Shown: in pieces, positions 5,965 through 23,203 of the stretch
Layout: the number at the start of each line of letters is the position of its first letter
How positions within the stretch are numbered: position 1 is the stretch's first letter
Source: a virus
Reading direction: 5' to 3' (one strand)
Virus record (IMG/VR): IMGVR_UViG_3300030103_002562
Coordinates: 12,947-37,327 of that record
DNA length: 24,381 nt
Position numbers and translations under genes: made by a program
Notes under the pieces: generated by a model
The model's input: the letters and a program-made list of their open reading frames with translations, nothing else
Told to the model about the DNA's origin: nothing
The model's database searches: none

Positions 5965-6225
5965 TTATTTTTTAGTACTTCTTCCGTCGGCACCATTTCG
6001 TGCTCTGTTCTTATACGGATGTTCAAGTACAAATTTACCATTTTTTTTCTTACTGACATCATCTCCACCCTTTCCGTCTATACCCCTACGCCTACGCTCC
6101 TTTGTATGCTCGGCACGGTACTTCTTTTGCTTCTCTGTCTTGTTCAGCTTTCTCTGATACCTTCGACGCTTCTCAGCCGCCTCAGGGTTCTCCTCGTAGT
6201 ACTTGGATGTCTTACTTTTTCCCAT
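5965..6225 (-). CDS. Highly basic conserved phage protein, 86 aa
   Basis: Starts MGKSKTSKYYEENPEAAEKR and is about 40% Lys/Arg, with RRRYQRKLNKTEKQKKYRAE forming a charged helix and a Gly/Asp/Lys-rich second half ending GADGRSTKK. Proteins with the MGKSKTSKYY start and a KxNK core are common in environmental tailed phages, without known function. A nucleic-acid-binding or internal virion role is plausible from composition. It is last in a run of seven small, mostly basic genes. Confidence 0.7.
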   Translation of the reverse strand: MGKSKTSKYYEENPEAAEKRRRYQRKLNKTEKQKKYRAEHTKERRRRGIDGKGGDDVSKKKNGKFVLEHPYKNRARNGADGRSTKK

Positions 6226-6382
6226 ACGGAAATAATTCGTTTAGTTTGTCCTTACGCTTGTCACATCCGCACGGCTGATTGAATGCCTTGGCTCCAGCCT
6301 TTACGATCTGTTGAATACCCGTAAGCTTAGTCACAGCCTCAACTGTGTCTCCCAAACCTTTATGTTTCTTTATCTTAATCAT
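6212..6382 (-). CDS. Small conserved phage protein with CGCDKRKDKLN motif, 56 aa
   Basis: Starts MIKIKKHKGLGDTVEAVTKL, then an alpha-helical middle and a CGCDKRKDKLNELFPY motif at about residues 38-53. The combination of GLGDT, a TGI helix and CGCDxRxxxLNxLFPY is familiar from Bacteroidota phages and prophages, where it has no assigned function. The two cysteines three residues apart could bind metal. The ATG at 6382 and 14-base overlap with the next gene fit the operon. Confidence 0.7.
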   Translation of the reverse strand: MIKIKKHKGLGDTVEAVTKLTGIQQIVKAGAKAFNQPCGCDKRKDKLNELFPYGKK

Positions 6383-8050: not shown

Positions 8051-8273
8051 TAGTAAGCCTCTCGTCTCCTATCAAGACGTCGTATGCCGACACCTTGTCA
8101 AATATAATGGTGTCTCCACCCTTGATTCCGAGTACATTGTACCCCACATCCCTGACATTACCCCTCTGGTAACGCATCTCGTTTGAGTCTTCGTCGCTCA
8201 TTATCAGTCCACTTGAGCTGGTCTTCTTCTCGTAAATCCTCTCAAGCATTATAAACTTATTTAGTATCTCCAT
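8016..8273 (-). CDS. groES: GroES co-chaperonin (phage)
   Basis: 85 aa, close to the usual 95-97. It shows a first strand FIMLERIYEK, a mobile loop TSSSGLIMSDED (compare the GGIVL loop that docks on GroEL) at about residues 18-29, RGNVRDVG, then GGDTIIFDK, and the ending LTIIQEKDVACVL, equivalent to the EVLIMSESDILAI end. It caps the GroEL ring and closes the folding chamber. It lies downstream of groEL and overlaps it by 17 bases, the reverse of the usual bacterial groES-groEL order. Its 3' end overlaps the convergent winged-helix gene. Confidence 0.85.
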   Translation of the reverse strand: MEILNKFIMLERIYEKKTSSSGLIMSDEDSNEMRYQRGNVRDVGYNVLGIKGGDTIIFDKVSAYDVLIGDERLTIIQEKDVACVL

Positions 8274-9816
8274 TGTCTCTGACGTTTGTTATTATTGAAC
8301 TCGTGCTCATTATCGTTGTGGCAACAGACACAGCATTCTCTAACGCATTCCTTGTCACATTAGCTGGGTCTATGATCCCCATCTTTATCATATCACCCAC
8401 CTTTTCATTCTTTACGTCGTACCCCTCTCCATCCTGTTTTAATTCGATCCTGGTTTTAATTGGATTTACGCCAGCATTCTCAAGTATTTGTACGAATGGA
8501 GCGAACAGTGCCTGAGTTACGATCTCAGATGCAATGGTGCCATCCTTAACAATATCCATGCAGTTCAGTAGTGCGATACCACCGCCAGGAAGTATTCCCC
8601 CCTCGATAGCTGCCTGTACCGCACATACAGCGTCATCGATACGGTCACGCTTCTCCTTCTGCTCTATATCTGTCAGTGCACCGACATGTATCACACCGAT
8701 ACCTCCAGATAGGTTTGCGATACGCTCCTGAAGAAAGTCTCTCTCCTCCTTCTGCTCTGTGCCCCATACAACCTTTTTTAGTACCTCGACATGGTCGGTT
8801 ATCGTATCACCCATCTCCTCTGCATGCATGATGACCGTCATGTCCTTACGTACGACTATCTTTGCAGCACGACCTAGGTCTCCCAGCTGTATCACGGACA
8901 GGTCGTCCCCAGTGTCGTCAGAGAAGTACGTACCACCAAGTGCCACGGCTAAATCTTCTAGGAGCTCCTTCTGCCTGTATCCAAAGTTTGGAGGGAGTAT
9001 GTTACACACCTTAATCTTACCCTGCAATGCATTGACATTCAGAGTGTTAAGTACGTTCTGACTCAGCTCTCCTATGATCAGCAGAGACTTACCCTGTGCC
9101 ACGATAGGCTTCAGTATGTTCTCTATATTGGCCAGGTTACTGATCTCGTGGTCCGTGATTAATACATACGGGTTCTCCATCACACACTCCTGCTTCTTCT
9201 GGTCAGTGACAAAATACTTTGAGGTATAACCACGCTCGATACGCATCCCCTTTATGATGTCTACATAGGTATCAGAGTTCATACTGTTCTCAACCGTCAC
9301 CATCTCTACCTCCTCAAACGCACCAGCGATCATCTCACCGACCTTCTTGTCGTTGTTGGCGGATATGGTTGCCACATCTATCAGACGCCTACCGCTTACC
9401 TTCTTACTCTTCTTCTTTAGGTGTGCATCTATACGCTCGGCTATCGAGTTTATCTCCCTGATTACCTCTGTAACATTCGTATCATCCTCGATGTATCTCT
9501 CTGCTGCATCTATGATCGCCTCGGCCAGGACGATAGATGTCGTCGTGCCGTCGCCAGCCATGGTGGCAGTCTTTTCTGCAGCCTGACGCATCATCATCAC
9601 CGCCAGGTTCTCAGTCGGGTCATATAGGTTGATCGACTTCGCTACCGTCACACCGTCCTTAGTGACCGTTATGCCGCCTACATGGTTCTCGGACTCTATA
9701 AGGACTGTCCGTCCCCTAGCCCCTAGTGTGCTCTTTACAGCTCCTGCAATTTTTTTGATTCCAGCCCTTAGTTTCTCTTGGCCGCTGTCGCCAAGGTGTA
9801 CCTGTTTTACTATCAT
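8257..9816 (-). CDS. groEL: GroEL-type group I chaperonin (phage)
   Basis: 519 aa (about 548 in E. coli). Nucleotide-site motifs: TLGARG at 30-35 (Pro33 of the usual TLGPKG is Ala), VTKDGVTVAK at 51-60, AGDGTTTSIVLA with Asp89 equivalent to E. coli Asp87, IDDAV with Asp395 equivalent to the hydrolytic Asp398, PGGGIAL at 410-416 and GIIDP near 480. The apical domain keeps NLANIENILKPIVAQGKSLL and a helix with VLNTLNVNAL where GroES and substrates bind. The C-terminus ends NVRDNGDTK without a Gly-Gly-Met tail. All ATPase residues appear intact. It probably folds phage virion proteins; a TATATTTG box and an upstream terminator isolate it as its own unit with groES. Confidence 0.95.
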   Translation of the reverse strand: MIVKQVHLGDSGQEKLRAGIKKIAGAVKSTLGARGRTVLIESENHVGGITVTKDGVTVAKSINLYDPTENLAVMMMRQAAEKTATMAGDGTTTSIVLAEAIIDAAERYIEDDTNVTEVIREINSIAERIDAHLKKKSKKVSGRRLIDVATISANNDKKVGEMIAGAFEEVEMVTVENSMNSDTYVDIIKGMRIERGYTSKYFVTDQKKQECVMENPYVLITDHEISNLANIENILKPIVAQGKSLLIIGELSQNVLNTLNVNALQGKIKVCNILPPNFGYRQKELLEDLAVALGGTYFSDDTGDDLSVIQLGDLGRAAKIVVRKDMTVIMHAEEMGDTITDHVEVLKKVVWGTEQKEERDFLQERIANLSGGIGVIHVGALTDIEQKEKRDRIDDAVCAVQAAIEGGILPGGGIALLNCMDIVKDGTIASEIVTQALFAPFVQILENAGVNPIKTRIELKQDGEGYDVKNEKVGDMIKMGIIDPANVTRNALENAVSVATTIMSTSSIITNVRDNGDTK

Positions 9817-11456: not shown

Positions 11457-11538
11457 AGACTTTTTTTTAGCTTGTCAGATGTGTGTAGCAATTGGTCAAT
11501 ATGTATATATGACGACGACGACCTCAAAAGGAAAAGCA

Positions 11539-11550
11539 CCCCCACCCCCC
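11539..11550. other. C-tract CCCCCACCCCCC in switch region
   Basis: Two cytosine runs of five and six bases separated by one A; on the minus strand it is a G-tract. It is conspicuous in an AT-rich, non-coding stretch. Preceded at 11511-11523 by a short GAC/ACG microsatellite. No function can be assigned. Confidence 0.6.
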
Positions 11551-11560
11551 TAAAACAAAT

Positions 11561-11589
11561 ACAAATCGAAGATTTGTTCTGAATTTTTT
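11561..11589. terminator. Perfect hairpin with T-run, possible terminator
   Basis: ACAAATC (11561-11567), three-base loop GAA, GATTTGT (11571-11577), then six T residues at 11584-11589 on the plus strand. The stem is AT-rich and weak. On the minus strand it is followed by ATTTGTTTT. It could be a bidirectional weak terminator or an operator dyad between the arms. Confidence 0.35.
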
Positions 11590-11597
11590 GCCGTTTT

Positions 11598-11676
11598 ATC
11601 TACATATCTGCCTGTCTATCAGCCTATTACGTTTGACGTAGCTACCTAACCATCTACATATCTGTCTGACTATCAG
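11598..11676. repeat. 25-bp direct repeat, two copies
   Basis: ATCTACATATCTG followed by CCTGTCTATCAG-like sequence occurs at 11598-11622 and 11652-11676, with 23 of 25 bases identical and a 54-bp period (about five helical turns). Lies in the non-coding switch region, suggesting paired protein-binding sites. Confidence 0.65.
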
Positions 11677-11735
11677 TAGCTTGTATAAAACCTCATACCA
11701 ACCAACCTATCAATAGGTCTGACTGACTGAAATTT

Positions 11736-11802
11736 ATTATGTATGCATAGCAATTAATTGGTCAGTCGATTTGTTATGCGTACATATATTATGTATGCAT
11801 AG
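11736..11802. repeat. 15-bp direct repeat ATTATGTATGCATAG, two copies
   Basis: Perfect copies at 11736-11750 and 11788-11802, period 52 bp. Each contains the palindrome ATGCAT, and a related TTATGCGTACAT lies between them. The spacing is close to that of the neighbouring 25-bp repeat pair. Confidence 0.65.
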
Positions 11803-11839
11803 GAAATTATAAATCCCGATATACCGTTTGACATTATCA

Positions 11840-11867
11840 TTGACTTACATACATAAAGACATAGAAT
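11840..11867 (+). promoter_or_regulatory. Sigma70-like promoter candidate for rightward arm
   Basis: TTGACT (11840-11845), a 16-base spacer, then TAGAAT (11862-11867): five of six matches to each E. coli-type hexamer. A perfect TTGACA also lies at 11828-11833. No clear TAnnTTTG box was found on the plus strand of the switch region, so early transcription may use a different promoter class. Sequence match only. Confidence 0.4.
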
Positions 11868-11885
11868 AAAACCTGCCCTAAAAAA

Positions 11886-11957
11886 ATGAACACAAAAACA
11901 AAAATAGTACTTGTTTATATGAAATCAATTGCAAGTGCTTGTTTTACAGTAAGTTAG
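11886..11957 (+). CDS. Possible 23-aa leader peptide
   Basis: An open frame beginning MNTKTKIVLVYMKSIASACF in an A-rich start context, about 12 bases beyond the predicted start of the sigma70-like promoter. The length is near chance expectation; the only support is position. It could be a leader peptide ahead of the structured RNA region, or nothing. Confidence 0.2.
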   Translation: MNTKTKIVLVYMKSIASACFTVS

Positions 11958-11986
11958 GTACTGATTCAATGACACACAAACCCGTC

Positions 11987-12034
11987 AACTACGTAGCACC
12001 CACTAAGTATAACTACGTAGATAGAACTAAGTAG
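11987..12034. repeat. AACTACGTAG operator-like repeats
   Basis: Perfect copies at 11987-11996 and 12011-12020, a one-mismatch copy (AACTAAGTAG) at 12025-12034, and a weaker CACTAAGTAT at 12001-12010. The core CTACGTAG is an eight-base palindrome, so each copy can bind a dimer. They lie downstream of the rightward promoter candidate, as expected for a repressor site. Confidence 0.55.
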
Positions 12035-12069
12035 TAACACGTAATCTTTAAACCTTATAAAAAAAAATT

Positions 12070-12144
12070 ATGACATATCGATTAAGTATTCCGAGATTTG
12101 ATATCAGAAGCAAACGAGCTACTACATACAAATTGAAATATTGA
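12070..12144 (+). CDS. Possible basic 24-aa peptide
   Basis: Open frame beginning MTYRLSIPRFDIRSKRATTY after an A8-TT leader resembling start contexts in the right arm. Very basic. Its IPRFDI is faintly like LRFDI in the 38-aa gene at 12446-12562, which may be chance. Coding status uncertain. Confidence 0.25.
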   Translation: MTYRLSIPRFDIRSKRATTYKLKY

Positions 12145-12161
12145 TAAGACAATAAACATAC

Positions 12162-12421
12162 CTTGGTTGGTCAGACGAGGGCTTGCAGAGATTAGTAAAG
12201 CGTAACTACGGGAGTACGTAAGGCAAGGGCAACATTACACTACTCAGGTGGGTGTTGTTAAAACCATATCAAATATGATATAGGGATAAAGGAGGGATGG
12301 CAGTTTCACGTGGCTATCAAAAGACTTGTGTAGGTTCGATTCCTACTATATAAGTGAGGTGCAAGTCAAACATTAGGTGCAGTTAGAATGACTAATTAAT
12401 GAGAGCAATACTCACTGCACC
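12162..12421 (+). ncRNA. Structured RNA candidate with tRNA T-arm-like hairpin
   Basis: Consecutive hairpins. CTTGC/GCAAG (12182-12186 with 12223-12227) encloses a bulged stem 12201-12218. CAACA/TGTTG pairs 12230-12234 with 12253-12257. CCATATC/GATATAGG with one bulge spans 12264-12284. GATGGC/GCTATC spans 12296-12318. A perfect T-arm GTAGG-TTCGATT-CCTAC is at 12330-12346, with a consensus seven-base loop. GGTGCAGT/ACTGCACC pairs 12376-12383 with 12414-12421. AGTGAG at 12353-12358 could instead pair with CTCACT at 12411-12416, giving two exclusive folds. No matching acceptor stem was found for a complete tRNA. A phage non-coding RNA or leader switch is inferred. Confidence 0.4.
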
Positions 12422-12445
12422 ACTAACCAATAAAAAACAAATATC

Positions 12446-12562
12446 ATGAGAAAAAGAAAAATAATAGGAAGAACGCCATGCCTACGTTTTGATATCGTAG
12501 CGATATTCATCAACGGAATTGAGGTATCTGGAAGCAGAAGAAGAATCAGAGTATTTAACTAA
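12446..12562 (+). CDS. Basic 38-aa peptide, first gene of rightward arm
   Basis: Begins MRKRKIIGRTPCLRFDIVAI and ends SGSRRRIRVFN. The start is preceded by AAAAAACAAATATC, matching the leader used before many genes of this arm, which supports it. Beta-rich and strongly basic. Function unknown. Confidence 0.6.
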   Translation: MRKRKIIGRTPCLRFDIVAIFINGIEVSGSRRRIRVFN

Positions 12563-12573
12563 AAAAAACAGAT

Positions 12574-15280: not shown

Positions 15281-15547
15281 ATGAAAGTAACAATAAGCGA
15301 AAGACGAATATACCATAAGGTAGCAGAGGTAGAGATAGATATTCCAGACAACATAGAGTTAGATGATGTATCAGATTATCTGATGGAGAATGAACACCTA
15401 TATGTAGATAGGTTAGATAACAAGATATCAGTATCGGAATACGAATACGGATTCGGTATGGGTATAGGTGCATATTGGACAGATAAAGACCAAGAGGTAG
15501 AGACAAGGTTCGATATAGACCAAAAAAATTTCGGAGGTCATCTGTAA
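15281..15547 (+). CDS. Conserved small phage protein ending GGHL, 88 aa
   Basis: Begins MKVTISERRIYHKVAEVEID, then IELDDVSDYLMENEHLYVDR, ISVSEYEYGFGMG and a terminal NFGGHL. The pattern 'YxKVAEVEI ... YLxENExLxVDxxD ... SEYEYGFG ... GGHL' is familiar from flavobacterial phages, with no known function. Acidic. Its stop marks the start of the non-coding repeat island, and the first repeat overlaps the stop codon. Confidence 0.65.
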   Translation: MKVTISERRIYHKVAEVEIDIPDNIELDDVSDYLMENEHLYVDRLDNKISVSEYEYGFGMGIGAYWTDKDQEVETRFDIDQKNFGGHL

Positions 15548-15831
15548 TGTTAATATACCTGACTGACAATCAATAGATTAGCCGATAAAATGTTAAACAG
15601 ACCAACATTGGCTAAGTGTCTGTAAATCAATCGATTGAACGAAAGAATGTTGGAATGTTAGAAATATTACAAATTGTGGGGAGAATATATATTATCACAA
15701 TCATCAGTATATATATATATTATTTACTTTTCTCTCACAGAAGGGAAAAAACTAACATTCTAACATTTCAATAAAAAAACATAGTAATATCAAGGGTTTC
15801 AGAGATGTTAATCCAAAAAAAAACCAACATT
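15546..15831. repeat. YYAACATY repeat cluster (iteron or operator array)
   Basis: Nine copies in 286 bp. Plus orientation cores AACATT at 15604, 15754, 15762 and 15826; minus orientation AATGTT at 15546, 15589, 15646 and 15654; a one-mismatch GATGTT at 15804. Every copy is preceded by two pyrimidines in its own orientation. Two tandem pairs (15646-15661 and 15752-15767) form a 16-bp inverted repeat with 15 matches. A perfect palindrome TCAATCGATTGA (15627-15638) and an AT alternating run (15711-15721) lie inside. The island has no convincing gene. An origin or multi-site operator is inferred. Confidence 0.65.
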
Positions 15832-15853
15832 TCGTAACACAAACCAACACAAA

Positions 15854-16042
15854 ATGAAAGAATACATAGACAACGGAGCCGAGATACTCGGCATGGAGTA
15901 CACAAGAGACGAGGTAATAGACCTCATCAAGTCGATTTTAATCGGAGACGAAGACCTATTGAACGGAAGGTCAATAGAACGGATGTCAGACGACGATATC
16001 ATAGAGATAGGGCACAATCATTATTCAATAACACTTAAATAA
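15854..16042 (+). CDS. Acidic hypothetical protein, 62 aa
   Basis: Begins MKEYIDNGAEILGMEYTRDE, with a helix VIDLIKSILIGDEDLL and a second helix around ERMSDDDIIEIG. The length, acidity and two-helix layout suggest a small helical protein; no family recognised. First gene after the repeat island, preceded by ACACAAA rather than the full leader motif. Confidence 0.65.
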   Translation: MKEYIDNGAEILGMEYTRDEVIDLIKSILIGDEDLLNGRSIERMSDDDIIEIGHNHYSITLK

Positions 16043-18926: not shown

Positions 18927-19418
18927 ATGCACTGGAGAAATTTAATGAAAGACAACAAGTACCTCGGCTCATGGGACTTGGAGGTCAATGGAAAGTATGA
19001 GCCTAAGCTAGTAACCATCAAGAAAATATACCAAGACGTCTTCGTAGGCGAGATGGGTAAGGAGGATAAGGTCTTCCTGATGATGAATGAGTTCGACAAG
19101 CCGATGGTTTGCAACCGATCAAACTTTAAGAGGTTGGAGAAGTTCTTTGGAACATTCGACTACAACGAGTACATCGGTAAGCAGATCGTCCTAAACACCG
19201 AGAAGGTCAAGTCACCGCAGGGAATGGTAGACGCACTGCGTTTTAGCACCAGGCCACTGCCTAAGAAGACAAAGAAGGTACTGACAGATGATCAGATGGA
19301 GAAGGCGACTGAGTCCGTATCAAACGGACGGTCAACACTGGCAAAAATATCTGCCGTTTACGAACTGAGTGATTCACAAATTAAAACCCTGAAAGATGCT
19401 GAGAATAAGAGCAAGTAA
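18927..19418 (+). CDS. Conserved phage protein upstream of exonuclease, 163 aa
   Basis: Begins MHWRNLMKDNKYLGSWDLEV and has PKLVTIKKIYQDVFV, KPMVCNRSNFKRLEKFFGTF, IGKQIVLNTEKVKSP and DALRFSTRPLP. The block 'YLGSWDLE ... TNFKRLEK.FG ... GK.I.L..EKVKS..GMVDALRFS' is a common phage protein type next to YqaJ exonucleases and probably adopts a small beta fold. The C-terminal 40 residues (STLAKISAVYELSDSQIKTL) look like a helix-turn-helix. A recombination accessory is inferred from linkage; it overlaps the exonuclease gene by 23 bases. Confidence 0.7.
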   Translation: MHWRNLMKDNKYLGSWDLEVNGKYEPKLVTIKKIYQDVFVGEMGKEDKVFLMMNEFDKPMVCNRSNFKRLEKFFGTFDYNEYIGKQIVLNTEKVKSPQGMVDALRFSTRPLPKKTKKVLTDDQMEKATESVSNGRSTLAKISAVYELSDSQIKTLKDAENKSK

Positions 19419-20166
19419 ATGTGCGGCCCTATTTACAGGTACGGACGGCCTGACAGCCAGGCAAGAGGCGGAGCTTGATATTTTGATGGCCAAGGATGAT
19501 TATAAATTGACGCACAACCAATCCGTTAAGCGTTATAATTTAATAGCCAAGCGTGACGCACCAATTACATTGGGCGAAGGAGCCAGGACATTGATAGAAG
19601 AGGCAATCGATGAGGTAATGTACGAGTATAGTGTATCTATCGACAGGAGAGAGATGACGAAGGGCACGGATGTTGAGGACGAGTCTATCGAGATATACAA
19701 CAGAATCTTCTTCACTGACTATCGTAAGATGGAGGAGTTCGATGACCACTACTCACTTAGCTTTCTGTTTGCATCAGGTCACCCTGACATTGTTGATCGT
19801 GAAAGACTTAAGGTGATAGACATTAAGTCTAGCTGGTCAAAGAAGACGTTCCCAAAACGTCCGCCAAAGAACTCTACATACGAGTGGCAGGTAAAGATGT
19901 ACCTATACATGCTTACCAAGAAGACTGGTAAGCACTGGTCTGATGGTGAGATTGCCTACATACTCACTACCACTCCTGAGGAGTTGATACCTGATCATGA
20001 GGACGACAGTCTACACTACATGGACGCACTGGAGGATAACCTACGTGCAACTATAGTAAAGATAGAGCTGACTGAGGATGACATCAAGCACATGGATGCA
20101 AGGATGTTTGCGGCAGAGATGTACGCAAAGGAATATGTAAATTTTTTAACAACCAAAAACAAATAA
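19396..20166 (+). CDS. YqaJ-like PD-(D/E)XK exonuclease
   Basis: 256 aa beginning MLRIRASKCAALFTGTDGLT, the RASK start typical of YqaJ/lambda-exonuclease relatives. The nuclease core has KGTDVEDESIEIYN (Glu94/96), GHPDIVD (Asp131), and VIDIKSSWS (Asp142 and Lys144, the (D/E)XK motif), followed by YEWQVKMYLYML, the helix with the QxxxY motif. It should resect double-stranded DNA ends for single-strand annealing recombination. A dedicated annealing protein is not evident beside it; the neighbouring gene may fill that place. An in-frame insertion of about 45 residues precedes the first motif. Confidence 0.8.
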   Translation: MLRIRASKCAALFTGTDGLTARQEAELDILMAKDDYKLTHNQSVKRYNLIAKRDAPITLGEGARTLIEEAIDEVMYEYSVSIDRREMTKGTDVEDESIEIYNRIFFTDYRKMEEFDDHYSLSFLFASGHPDIVDRERLKVIDIKSSWSKKTFPKRPPKNSTYEWQVKMYLYMLTKKTGKHWSDGEIAYILTTTPEELIPDHEDDSLHYMDALEDNLRATIVKIELTEDDIKHMDARMFAAEMYAKEYVNFLTTKNK

Positions 20167-20167
20167 A

Positions 20168-20512
20168 ATGAGTAATCAATTTAAAATGAAAGGTGTCGTG
20201 GAAAAGATCTTCGACACAGAACAAGTAAGTGAAAAGTTTAAGAAGAGAACATTTGTACTGAACGATCAGGCAGATAAGTATCCACAAACCATATCGTTCC
20301 AGGCGGTGCAGGATAAGACGACACTTTTAGACTCTATTATAGAGGGTCAAGAGGTAGAGGTATCGTTCAACCTTCGAGGACGTGAGTGGACATCACCAGA
20401 TGGTGAGGTTAAGTACTTCAACACACTAGAGGCATGGAGAATAGAGGGATCCTCTGAACCAGCTCCACAGCCAGTTACAACTGAAGAGAAGGACGGAGAT
20501 CTTCCGTTTTAG
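20168..20512 (+). CDS. DUF3127 OB-fold, SSB-like protein
   Basis: 114 aa. Strand pattern MKGVVEKIFDTEQVSEKFKK, RTFVLND, PQTISFQAVQDK, EVEVSFNLRGREWTSPDG and LEAWRIE is the DUF3127 signature: a single OB-fold common in Bacteroidota phages. The protein ends in an acidic tail EEKDGDLPF, like the DxPF tails by which SSBs recruit partners, so it probably binds single-stranded DNA during recombination or replication. It directly follows the exonuclease with an AAAACAAATAAA leader and is followed by a terminator. Confidence 0.8.
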   Translation: MSNQFKMKGVVEKIFDTEQVSEKFKKRTFVLNDQADKYPQTISFQAVQDKTTLLDSIIEGQEVEVSFNLRGREWTSPDGEVKYFNTLEAWRIEGSSEPAPQPVTTEEKDGDLPF

Positions 20513-20634: not shown

Positions 20635-20865
20635 ATGAAATATTACACGACACGTACAGATAATCTTGACAAGAGGGATAAGGTTATAGAGACATTGAAG
20701 GATCACTACGACGCCAGAAGTAAGAAGGGTATTATCAAGTACAAAACCACACTACATGACAATAATGACGATGACTTCCTTATGCATCTGCTAGAGGAGT
20801 TGATGGATGCTACGGCATATATTACTAAACTTCTAATGCAGAGAAAAAATGATAACGTACTTTAA
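20635..20865 (+). CDS. MazG-like small helical protein, 76 aa
   Basis: Contains a KKGIIKYKTTLHDNN segment and HLLEELMDATAYITKLLMQR. The order 'KGxxKYxTTL ... N.DD...H..EEL.DA..YI..L' is the core of small phage MazG/dUTPase-like helical proteins that handle nucleoside triphosphates, with the EExxD part of the metal site. At 76 aa only the minimal helical pair is present, so activity is uncertain. It overlaps the primase gene by 17 bases. Confidence 0.5.
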   Translation: MKYYTTRTDNLDKRDKVIETLKDHYDARSKKGIIKYKTTLHDNNDDDFLMHLLEELMDATAYITKLLMQRKNDNVL

Positions 20866-23203
20866 GACAATAAACGAGACAGACAAGCCATACCACATAG
20901 ACATAGATAGGGCAATAGATCGTATACGTGATGGATCTTCAAAGGATTTAGTAGGTCAGGTTAGGTTAGAGGTGGATAAAGATGGTAGGAATCAGTTGAA
21001 AAAACAACTTCCTGCCATCTGCTTCTCTGGGACTTTTTCAGATAGGCGTGACAGCTCCATCATTGATCACAGTGGGATAATGTGCCTGGACTTCGATGGC
21101 TTCAGGGACGAGCAACACCTACACTCAAAGAGGTTGGAGCTGATGGAGGATGAGTTCACTTACTGTCTATTCACATCTCCATCTGGGAATGGTATCAAGA
21201 CGCTTGTCCGTATACCTAAAGATGCAAAGAATCATAAAAAATATTTCAAGGCACTTGAGAAGTACTACGCATGCGATGAGTTCGATACCTCGTGCAAGAA
21301 CATTTCAAGGGTATGCTACGAGAGTTATGATCCAGACATATATGTCAATGAGCTTTCATCTGTATGGAAGGACATGGAGAAGGAGATTGAATTTGTAACC
21401 AAGTCAAAGGCAACCATAAAGATATCAGATAGCAACGAGATCATACGCAGGCTCTCGCTATGGTGGGACAAGAAGTATGGTATGGTCCAGGGTCAGAAGA
21501 ACAACAACCTTTTTATTTTGGCTTCCGCACTGAATGAGTTTGGAATCAATCAAGACGAGGCGTTTACTACTCTGAACTCATACGACTCAACTGGTGAGAA
21601 GTCTTCGGAGATTATGGCTATAGTACGTAGTGCTTACAAGAACATGTCTGGTCACAACACTAAGTTCTACGAGGACGTAGACAAGACATCTGCAATAGCC
21701 AGAGACATAAAGATGGGCGTACCTATTTCTGAGATAAAGGACAGTAATCAGGATGTCGATGTCGATGAGGTCGCTAAGACTGTAGACTTCAATGAATTTT
21801 GGATAAAGAACAGTAAGGGTAAGATTGATCTTGTACCTCATCTGTTTAGATTATACTTGCAGGATAATGGTTTCTACAAGTACTACCCCGTAGGTAGCAA
21901 TAACTTTGTATTCGTTAGGGTGATTGACAACACCATATCTGACGTTAACGAGGATATGATAAAGGACTTCGTACTTGACTTCCTTCTAGGTATCGACGAC
22001 ATGTCGGTATACAACTTCTTCGCACTCAATACAAAGTTTTTTCAGGAGACATTTTTAAATTATGTCTCAAGGATAGAGCCAGACTTTATGGTTGATAACA
22101 CTGATGAGGCTTATTTGTACTACCGAAACTGTGCTGTAAAGGTCACAAGGGATAGCGTAGAAACCATTTCTTACAGAAACCTTAAGGGGCATGTATGGGA
22201 AAAGCAAAAGATAGACAGGGACTTCATCAAGTCTGAGTTTAAGGATTCAGAGTTCAGGTACTTCATTAAGAACATATCTGGAGACAGATCTGATAGCACA
22301 AGGTCTATGGAGAGCACTCTTGGATACCTTATGCACTCACACAAACCAGCAAGCTACTGCCCTGCCGTCATACTGAATGACGAGATAATATCTGACCATC
22401 CTGAGGGTGGAACTGGTAAGGGTATCTTTGTCAAGTCGATAAGTCACATCAAGAAGATGGTTATAATTGACGGAAAGGGATTTTCATTTCAAAAGTCTTT
22501 CCCGTACCAGAGGGTACAGGTAGATACACAGACACTTGTGTTTGATGACGTCGCAAAGAATTTTGACTTCGAGAGACTTTTCTCTGTAATCACAGAGGGC
22601 ATTACCCTTGAGAAGAAAAACAAGGACGAGATACACATACCTTTCGAGTACTCTCCAAAGATTGTTATAACTACAAACTATGCAATCAAGGGTGCTGGTA
22701 ATAGCTTTGAGAGGCGTAAGTGGGACCTGGAGTTCAAGCAGTACTATACTAAAAGCTTCACGCCTGAGAGTGACTTTGGCCACATGCTATTCAGCGAGTG
22801 GACAGATTCTGAATGGTCAAAGTTTGACAACTACATGATAGACAACCTTCAGCTATATTTGAAGAGTGGCCTTGTTGTATGCGAGTTCAAGAACCTTAAG
22901 GTTAGGAACTTTATTGCTGAGACTAATTCAGACTTCTGGGAGTGGGCTGACGGTAAGGATAACTACTACACGAACAAAGGTTCGGCAAGCCTGGGTATGG
23001 ATCTTTACAACAACTTTACCGAGGAGTATCCAGACTATGGTCCGTATGGAAAGTTTAAGCTTTCTCATAGTAAGTTTTACAAGTGGCTTGATAGCTTTGG
23101 TAAGTTTAAGTACGATACCAAGCCGATTATAACCAGGAATGCGTCTGGAAAGATGATAGAATTTATAGAAACTGAGCCTGAACAGGTGAAACTAAACTTT
23201 TAA
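20849..23203 (+). CDS. Primase-helicase (BT4734-like N-domain + D5-type SF3 helicase)
   Basis: 784 aa. The N-terminal part has IMCLDFDGF (Asp81, Asp83) and YCLFTSPSGNGIKTLVRIP (105-123), the pattern of BT4734/VirE-type primase-polymerase-like domains. The C-terminal part is a superfamily 3 helicase: Walker A EGGTGKGI at 519-526, Walker B LVFDDV at 563-568, sensor-like KIVITTN at 604-610, and a downstream ERRKW arginine. Together it should prime and unwind at the phage origin. The middle (about 190-470) has no recognisable motif and probably links the two. Overlaps the small helical gene; the stop is followed three bases later by the helicase gene. Confidence 0.85.
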   Translation: MITYFKTINETDKPYHIDIDRAIDRIRDGSSKDLVGQVRLEVDKDGRNQLKKQLPAICFSGTFSDRRDSSIIDHSGIMCLDFDGFRDEQHLHSKRLELMEDEFTYCLFTSPSGNGIKTLVRIPKDAKNHKKYFKALEKYYACDEFDTSCKNISRVCYESYDPDIYVNELSSVWKDMEKEIEFVTKSKATIKISDSNEIIRRLSLWWDKKYGMVQGQKNNNLFILASALNEFGINQDEAFTTLNSYDSTGEKSSEIMAIVRSAYKNMSGHNTKFYEDVDKTSAIARDIKMGVPISEIKDSNQDVDVDEVAKTVDFNEFWIKNSKGKIDLVPHLFRLYLQDNGFYKYYPVGSNNFVFVRVIDNTISDVNEDMIKDFVLDFLLGIDDMSVYNFFALNTKFFQETFLNYVSRIEPDFMVDNTDEAYLYYRNCAVKVTRDSVETISYRNLKGHVWEKQKIDRDFIKSEFKDSEFRYFIKNISGDRSDSTRSMESTLGYLMHSHKPASYCPAVILNDEIISDHPEGGTGKGIFVKSISHIKKMVIIDGKGFSFQKSFPYQRVQVDTQTLVFDDVAKNFDFERLFSVITEGITLEKKNKDEIHIPFEYSPKIVITTNYAIKGAGNSFERRKWDLEFKQYYTKSFTPESDFGHMLFSEWTDSEWSKFDNYMIDNLQLYLKSGLVVCEFKNLKVRNFIAETNSDFWEWADGKDNYYTNKGSASLGMDLYNNFTEEYPDYGPYGKFKLSHSKFYKWLDSFGKFKYDTKPIITRNASGKMIEFIETEPEQVKLNF

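Follow-up and report, generated by a model that had tools for sequence, protein, structure and literature searches.

A predicted replication origin with inverted iteron arrays, and a primase-helicase as its proposed initiator, in Bacteroidota phages

At pSC101, P1, and oriC, initiator sites, an IHF bend, and an AT-rich unwinding element adjoin, and the initiators load the host DnaB helicase. In the satellite phage P4, the alpha protein, at once primase, helicase, and initiator, recognizes short repeats in two cis sites that lie apart. The PICI/SaPI elements EcCICFT073, SaPIbov1, and SaPI5 possess origins built as an AT-rich region with a set of short iterons on either side (PMC6092414, which also mentions P4 alpha and its cis site). 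The PICI/SaPI initiator is a self-loading helicase, the C-terminal domain of which reads the iterons (PMC7581432). The putative SCCmec origin consists of 5-nt iterons downstream of the gene for Cch2, a D5-type helicase whose C-terminal domain binds them (PMC7581432). Our literature search found no described origin for the phage family considered here.

The window, by which we mean the whole stretch of DNA that was analyzed, takes up the end (24,381 bases) of a viral record 37,327 bp long. Its gene content, which includes a primase-helicase with a BT4734-like domain, a single-strand DNA-binding protein, an exonuclease, and a GroEL, points to a Bacteroidota phage. The nearest annotated relatives in a phage collection are MW202828 and phages of Flavobacterium, Polaribacter, Nonlabens, and Cellulophaga. 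MW202828 is a complete, circular podovirus genome of 60,850 bp, with its own terminase, portal, and structural genes. A blastn search of the window against phage records gave no match, and no Rfam family matched. Within the window lies an island of short repeats that we predict to be a replication origin bound by the phage primase-helicase and equipped with a bend site for a host IHF/HU-type protein, a reading to which we give a probability of roughly 0.8. Very probably, the repeats mark the place at which replication begins in a whole family of Bacteroidota phages from marine and fresh waters.

The island resembles a PICI/SaPI origin in that sets of iterons flank an AT-rich region, and the window primase-helicase has SaPI5 Rep among its structural matches. 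Unlike the PICI/SaPI origin, which lies 3′ of rep, the island precedes the primase-helicase gene by 5.3 kb, with its counterpart in a second clade of relatives immediately upstream of that gene. Islands of this family also differ in having IHF-type boxes and in often occurring in two copies, and their carrier is a 60-kb podophage without an integrase, not a satellite island. For two reasons, a location other than 3′ of the initiator gene and a carrier that is not a satellite, we do not class the island as a PICI origin, although by analogy it would work like one. With its two islands, the second clade brings to mind P4 ori and crr. Unlike P4, the window clade has one island, and the repeat sequence, the IHF boxes, and the primase type all differ; the likeness is one of arrangement, and the sites may not be homologous. 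SCCmec differs in possessing three direct iterons only, with a separate primase-polymerase and no inverted arrays around an AT-rich core. Finally, unlike at pSC101, P1, and oriC, the proposed initiator is itself a helicase.

The island is bounded by the stop codon of the open reading frame 15281-15547, which overlaps the first site, and by the ATG at 15854. Its features, and the genes that bear on it, are as follows (window coordinates).

8257-9816, minus strand: GroEL gene of the window phage; in the sister clade, groEL is conserved beside a second island
15546-15553, minus strand: iteron TTAACATT, overlapping the stop codon of the upstream open reading frame
15568-15580, plus strand: IHF-type box AATCAATAGATTA, exact match to the consensus WATCARNNNNTTR
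15589-15596, minus strand: iteron TTAACATT
15602-15609, plus strand: iteron CCAACATT, off-orientation within the left half
15625-15637, plus strand: IHF-type box AATCAATCGATTG, exact consensus match, including the palindrome TCAATCGATTGA at 15626-15637
15646-15661, minus strand: left tandem iteron pair, CTAACATT CCAACATT read on the minus strand, the best-conserved element of the left half
15680-15735, no strand: AT-rich stretch with an alternating TA run, the proposed unwinding element
15752-15767, plus strand: right tandem iteron pair, CTAACATT CTAACATT, inverted with respect to the left pair
15788-15800, plus strand: degenerate IHF-type box TATCAAGGGTTTC, one mismatch
15804-15811, minus strand: iteron TTAACATC, off-orientation within the right half
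15824-15831, plus strand: iteron CCAACATT
15835-15850, plus strand: two extra cores, TAACAC (15835) and CAACAC (15845), immediately 5′ of the ATG at 15854
19396-20166, plus strand: PD-(D/E)XK exonuclease, a replication neighbor
20168-20512, plus strand: single-strand DNA-binding protein (SSB; PHROG 4932, DUF3127), a replication neighbor
20849-23203, plus strand: primase-helicase, 784 aa, with a BT4734-like domain, the proposed initiator

A previous, sequence-only reading had placed nine YYAACATY sites at 15546-15831, eight with an exact AACATT core and one near match. All nine are present where it put them, on the minus strand (starts 15546, 15589, 15646, 15654, and 15804) and on the plus strand (starts 15602, 15752, 15760, and 15824); the near match is TTAACATC at 15804. 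The other elements that it had described are there as well: a 16-bp inverted repeat (15 of 16 positions; arms 15646-15661 and 15752-15767, 90 nt apart), an alternating AT run between the arms, and a 12-bp palindrome, TCAATCGATTGA (15626-15637). The palindrome belongs to a second, different type of box, the IHF type, and the functional core of the iterons is probably the shorter YAACAY rather than the octamer. The two halves are less strictly inverted in the window than in the family average, with one off-orientation site per side. The AT-rich stretch holds the duplex-stability minimum of the island, which is the third weakest 50-bp stretch of the record. A 52-codon open reading frame with a GTG start (15616-15774) lies inside the island and is by itself no evidence of a gene.

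Nine of the 13 copies of YYAACATY in the window sit inside the 286-bp island, and a count across the record, which had been proposed as a check, yields 18 in 37,327 bp. Shuffling the island gives a mean of 0.20 sites and a maximum of three. In 600 dinucleotide shuffles of the whole record, the 286-bp maximum is four, versus nine observed. Thus, by window, record, and shuffles alike, a similar density of the octamer elsewhere, which the sequence-only reading had named as evidence against itself, is not found.

Relatives of the primase-helicase were collected from viral contigs. In most of those with enough upstream sequence, the cluster recurs 4.5-8 kb upstream of the primase-helicase gene, and the island is kept among relatives with primase-helicase identities of 62-97% (the lowest being 62-65%). 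Loss of the sites in close relatives, the other outcome that had been held to count against the proposal, is therefore not seen; no island was found in a few relatives with enough upstream sequence, such as L051. The flanking genes vary: the islands of L016 and L019 align at ~80% between different neighbors. Aligned islands have in common a left tandem pair and, after an AT- or T-rich stretch, a right tandem pair, to the right of which more copies follow as far as the next ATG. Their common core, YRACAY, forms two inverted arrays around the AT-rich run. Specifically, in the window clade, 97 of 108 cores to the left of this pivot are on the minus strand (11 plus), and 103 of 110 to its right are on the plus strand (7 minus). 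Of 12 nearly complete records scanned, 10 have their densest YRACAY cluster at the island; the exceptions are G015, in which it ties with a second island, and G007, in which it is weaker. For each of six records, the three least stable 50-bp stretches of duplex include one within the island.

One candidate element was rejected. A hairpin (P3) that would separate the left iteron pair from the AT run is not claimed to be conserved: it is striking in L036, L039, L048, L049, L050, and L074, and in most other relatives, as in the window, it is no better than in shuffles. On this ground, N4-type hairpin promoters and T7-like promoters were set aside as well. As a separate observation, near-perfect palindromes of variable sequence, with 9-13 bp arms, occupy this interval in some relatives and not in others (L036 4740-5110, L039 4260-4660, L049 3610-3990, and L050 1950-2320).

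The MW202828-like phages, at ~50% primase-helicase identity to the window clade, constitute the second clade. Directly upstream of their primase-helicase start codon is an island of the same build, ordered as TGTCR sites, an AT-rich stretch, YGACAYnnnYGACAY, an IHF-type box, two to four more YGACAY, and the ATG. The core is mostly YGACA, and a clear iteron pair is missing in a few members. Around the pivot, the orientation is 46 minus to 6 plus on the left and 210 plus to 2 minus on the right. Usually there is a second island as well: five nearly complete second-clade records have one in front of groEL, oriented oppositely with respect to it. The two islands are ~9-13 kb apart (L133 1-340; MW202828 42621-42803 and 53555-53738; G013, G015, and G019). 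Both islands of one genome share their iteron type. Because the groEL-side island, too, is YAACA in second-clade YAACA phages, a single protein appears to read both islands of a genome. Phage L085 is a chimera (relevant coordinates 2453-2719 and 6200-6380): the gene that flanks the window's island is kept (78% identical), the island after that gene is absent, and a YGACA-type island precedes its own primase-helicase (47% identical). A possible third iteron type, TATCAT/TCATCA, occurs in both islands of one phage; the sequences concerned are L160 (G020), upstream of the primase-helicase, and L368. The elemoE phages, which are ~37% identical in the N-terminal part only, revealed no comparable island.

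The Pfam domains of the primase-helicase are BT4734-like_N, PriCT_1, and DUF5906, arranged as a primase N-terminal domain, PriCT_1, a DUF5906 helicase, and a C-terminal winged helix (model residues ~681-772). The last of these is a prediction: in the AlphaFold2 model, the C-terminus runs helix-helix-strand-helix-helix-hairpin, which we read as a winged helix with residue 768 in the wing. SelB-wing_2, a winged-helix profile of Pfam, matches some family members. PDB sequence searches with the protein gave no match, so that its structural relatives come from fold comparison only (Foldseek and VIA-align), with a helicase/ATPase core modeled at low confidence: Z is 13.7 for ASFV PrimPol, 12.2 for the SaPI5 primase-helicase (Rep), ~11 for poxvirus D5/E5, and 7.6 for the NrS-1 C-terminal region. 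By the same two programs, the N-terminal domain resembles S-2L PrimPol and RepB′ primases. Judged by Pfam and by its modeled fold, the protein is a D5/SaPI5-type primase-helicase (SF3 helicase plus primase domain), and it resembles self-loading initiator helicases.

A link between this protein and the iterons emerges from their co-variation. The iteron type (YAACA or YGACA) is clear in 121 phages, and on a tree of these built from primase-helicase residues 1-650 only, it switches at least seven times. Among the 83 YGACA phages, 80 have K at residue 716 and all have R at residue 768; among the 38 YAACA phages, K is never found at 716 and stands at 768 in 35. In a ranking that covered the columns of the primase-helicase, 716 and 768 come first and second of 596 variable columns for following iteron type, and eight of the top 10 fall in 651-784, the C-terminal 134 residues. 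For the 70 columns whose raw correlation was highest, a pair test was performed: residue 716 agrees with iteron type in 4.6 of five supported independent pairs on average and is never opposed, a number of pairs with which the sign test alone cannot reach p<0.05. The window protein, with G716, K768, and YAACA iterons, matches expectation, and the window clade by itself is uninformative about the association, nearly all of its members being YAACA. Together, these patterns support the prediction that the C-terminal winged helix reads the iterons.

The second type of box follows the published E. coli IHF consensus, WATCARNNNNTTR (PMC8421141). Two boxes in the window island match exactly. IHF-consensus boxes occur between iterons, and 34 of 38 islands carry a match. 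The window clade has 30 boxes in 19 islands, versus 1.9 ± 1.4 in shuffles, with at least one in every island; the second clade has 35 in 49 islands, versus 3.0 in shuffles. At the position equivalent to the degenerate box of the window, L062 and L064 carry AATCAAGGGTTTA, a full match. The middle positions are mostly free, as in the consensus: in second-clade boxes, the third of the four N positions favors A, and the other three hold little information. We regard the boxes as candidate sites assumed to be bent by a protein of the IHF/HU family. This protein would come from the host, because a search of the phages found no HU/IHF gene.

Other parts of the window merit mention. The extrema of cumulative GC skew lie at the divergence of transcription and not at the island, and they track the direction of transcription; skew thus does not support the origin. 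The divergence itself (11500-12570) is ~1 kb of non-coding DNA that holds the skew minimum and two IHF-consensus boxes within a repeated motif (11617, TATCAGCCTATTA; 11671, TATCAGTAGCTTG); it may be another control region or a packaging or replication element. At 12330-12420, a stretch resembles a tRNA T-arm (GTAGGTTCGATTCCTAC). ARAGORN made no tRNA call and Rfam no match there, and this is possibly a degenerate tRNA or tRNA-like RNA.

What the computation shows directly is that inverted arrays are conserved, that boxes fit the IHF consensus, that the duplex is weak, and that iteron sequence co-varies with the winged helix. Because the inverted arrays around weak duplex are conserved, and because of the IHF-type boxes, the D5/SaPI5-type primase-helicase, and the co-variation, the suggestion in the sequence-only reading that the iterons are bound by an initiator such as the primase-helicase is well supported by computation. 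We infer binding, bending, melting, the loading of two hexamers, and a start of replication at the island. In this scheme, the winged helix at the C-terminus of the primase-helicase would contact the 6-8 bp iterons, and the inverted arrays would position helicase assemblies on both sides of the AT-rich stretch. A host IHF/HU-family protein would bend the WATCARNNNNTTR boxes, thereby bringing the arrays together. The AT-rich stretch would then melt, and the same primase-helicase would unwind and prime.

Other explanations must be weighed. AT-rich sequence favors such words, and the cluster could be an accident of AT-rich non-coding DNA. Given that shuffles reach at most three sites in the island and four per 286 bp of the record, and that the island is conserved among relatives in both clades, we consider chance a negligible prospect. 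A more serious proposal is control of an operator or promoter, by which the primase-helicase or another phage DNA-binding protein would regulate downstream transcription with no role in initiation. One second-clade copy does lie in a leader, with a terminator-like hairpin before it and the primase-helicase ATG after it, a place that would suit an operator equally well, and the right array of the window clade runs up to the next ATG; moreover, control regions also contain IHF-type boxes, and initiators often autoregulate. However, the window-clade island is 5 kb from the primase-helicase gene, before differing small genes, and the groEL-side copy of the second clade is oriented opposite to groEL. 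The Bacteroidota sigma-A promoter (TTTG-N17-22-TAnnTTTG) occurs in 0 of 21 islands, in a search for this promoter type only and not for phage-specific ones, and sigma-70 scans found promoter-like sites no commoner than in shuffles. We place the weight on an origin for three reasons: it is the replicative primase-helicase that co-varies with the sites, the anatomy persists though neighbors and orientation relative to genes change, and the search found no host-type promoter. Regulation as the entire function is thus unlikely. The operator alternative raised in the earlier reading may hold as an extra role, since a second-clade copy fronts the primase-helicase gene, and it explains less as a sole role; autoregulation in the second clade as well is likely.

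Lambda attP, in which arm-type and core-type integrase sites are combined with IHF bends, also bears a superficial similarity to the island, with its short repeats on both strands and its IHF-type boxes. A tyrosine integrase (PF00589) is found in none of 14 records, among them that of the window and a complete circular genome, and we reject a lambda-type attP on this absence of its cognate enzyme. The sites, moreover, co-vary with the primase-helicase and are present in two copies in many genomes, making an attachment site highly improbable. Centromere-like sites can likewise have inverted arrays of short sites, and a small phage DNA-binding protein could use the island for partition, packaging, or chromatin anchoring. 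Against this idea, which we hold to be quite improbable, among the primase-helicase columns ranked, those that best follow iteron type sit in the C-terminal domain of that protein.

Returning to the predicted origin, we regard as evenly balanced a wider, joint reading: that a large family of free-living Bacteroidota phages uses an origin of the satellite-island type, with inverted iterons, an unwinding element, and a self-loading primase-helicase, to which an IHF-type bend is added, each genome having one such origin or two. A readable code would exist, in which residues 716 and 768 of the winged helix follow one iteron base pair, and, with both copies switching together, phages of one type would be unable to fire the origins of the other.

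The origins of most environmental phages are unknown. Here, a candidate origin is located, along with its likely reader and a testable specificity code, in a family with many members among public viral contigs. The natural YAACA and YGACA variants make the pairing of protein and DNA testable without designed sequence. A layout described as unique to phage-inducible islands would be extended to ordinary phages, and its presence there bears on the source of the replicons of satellites.
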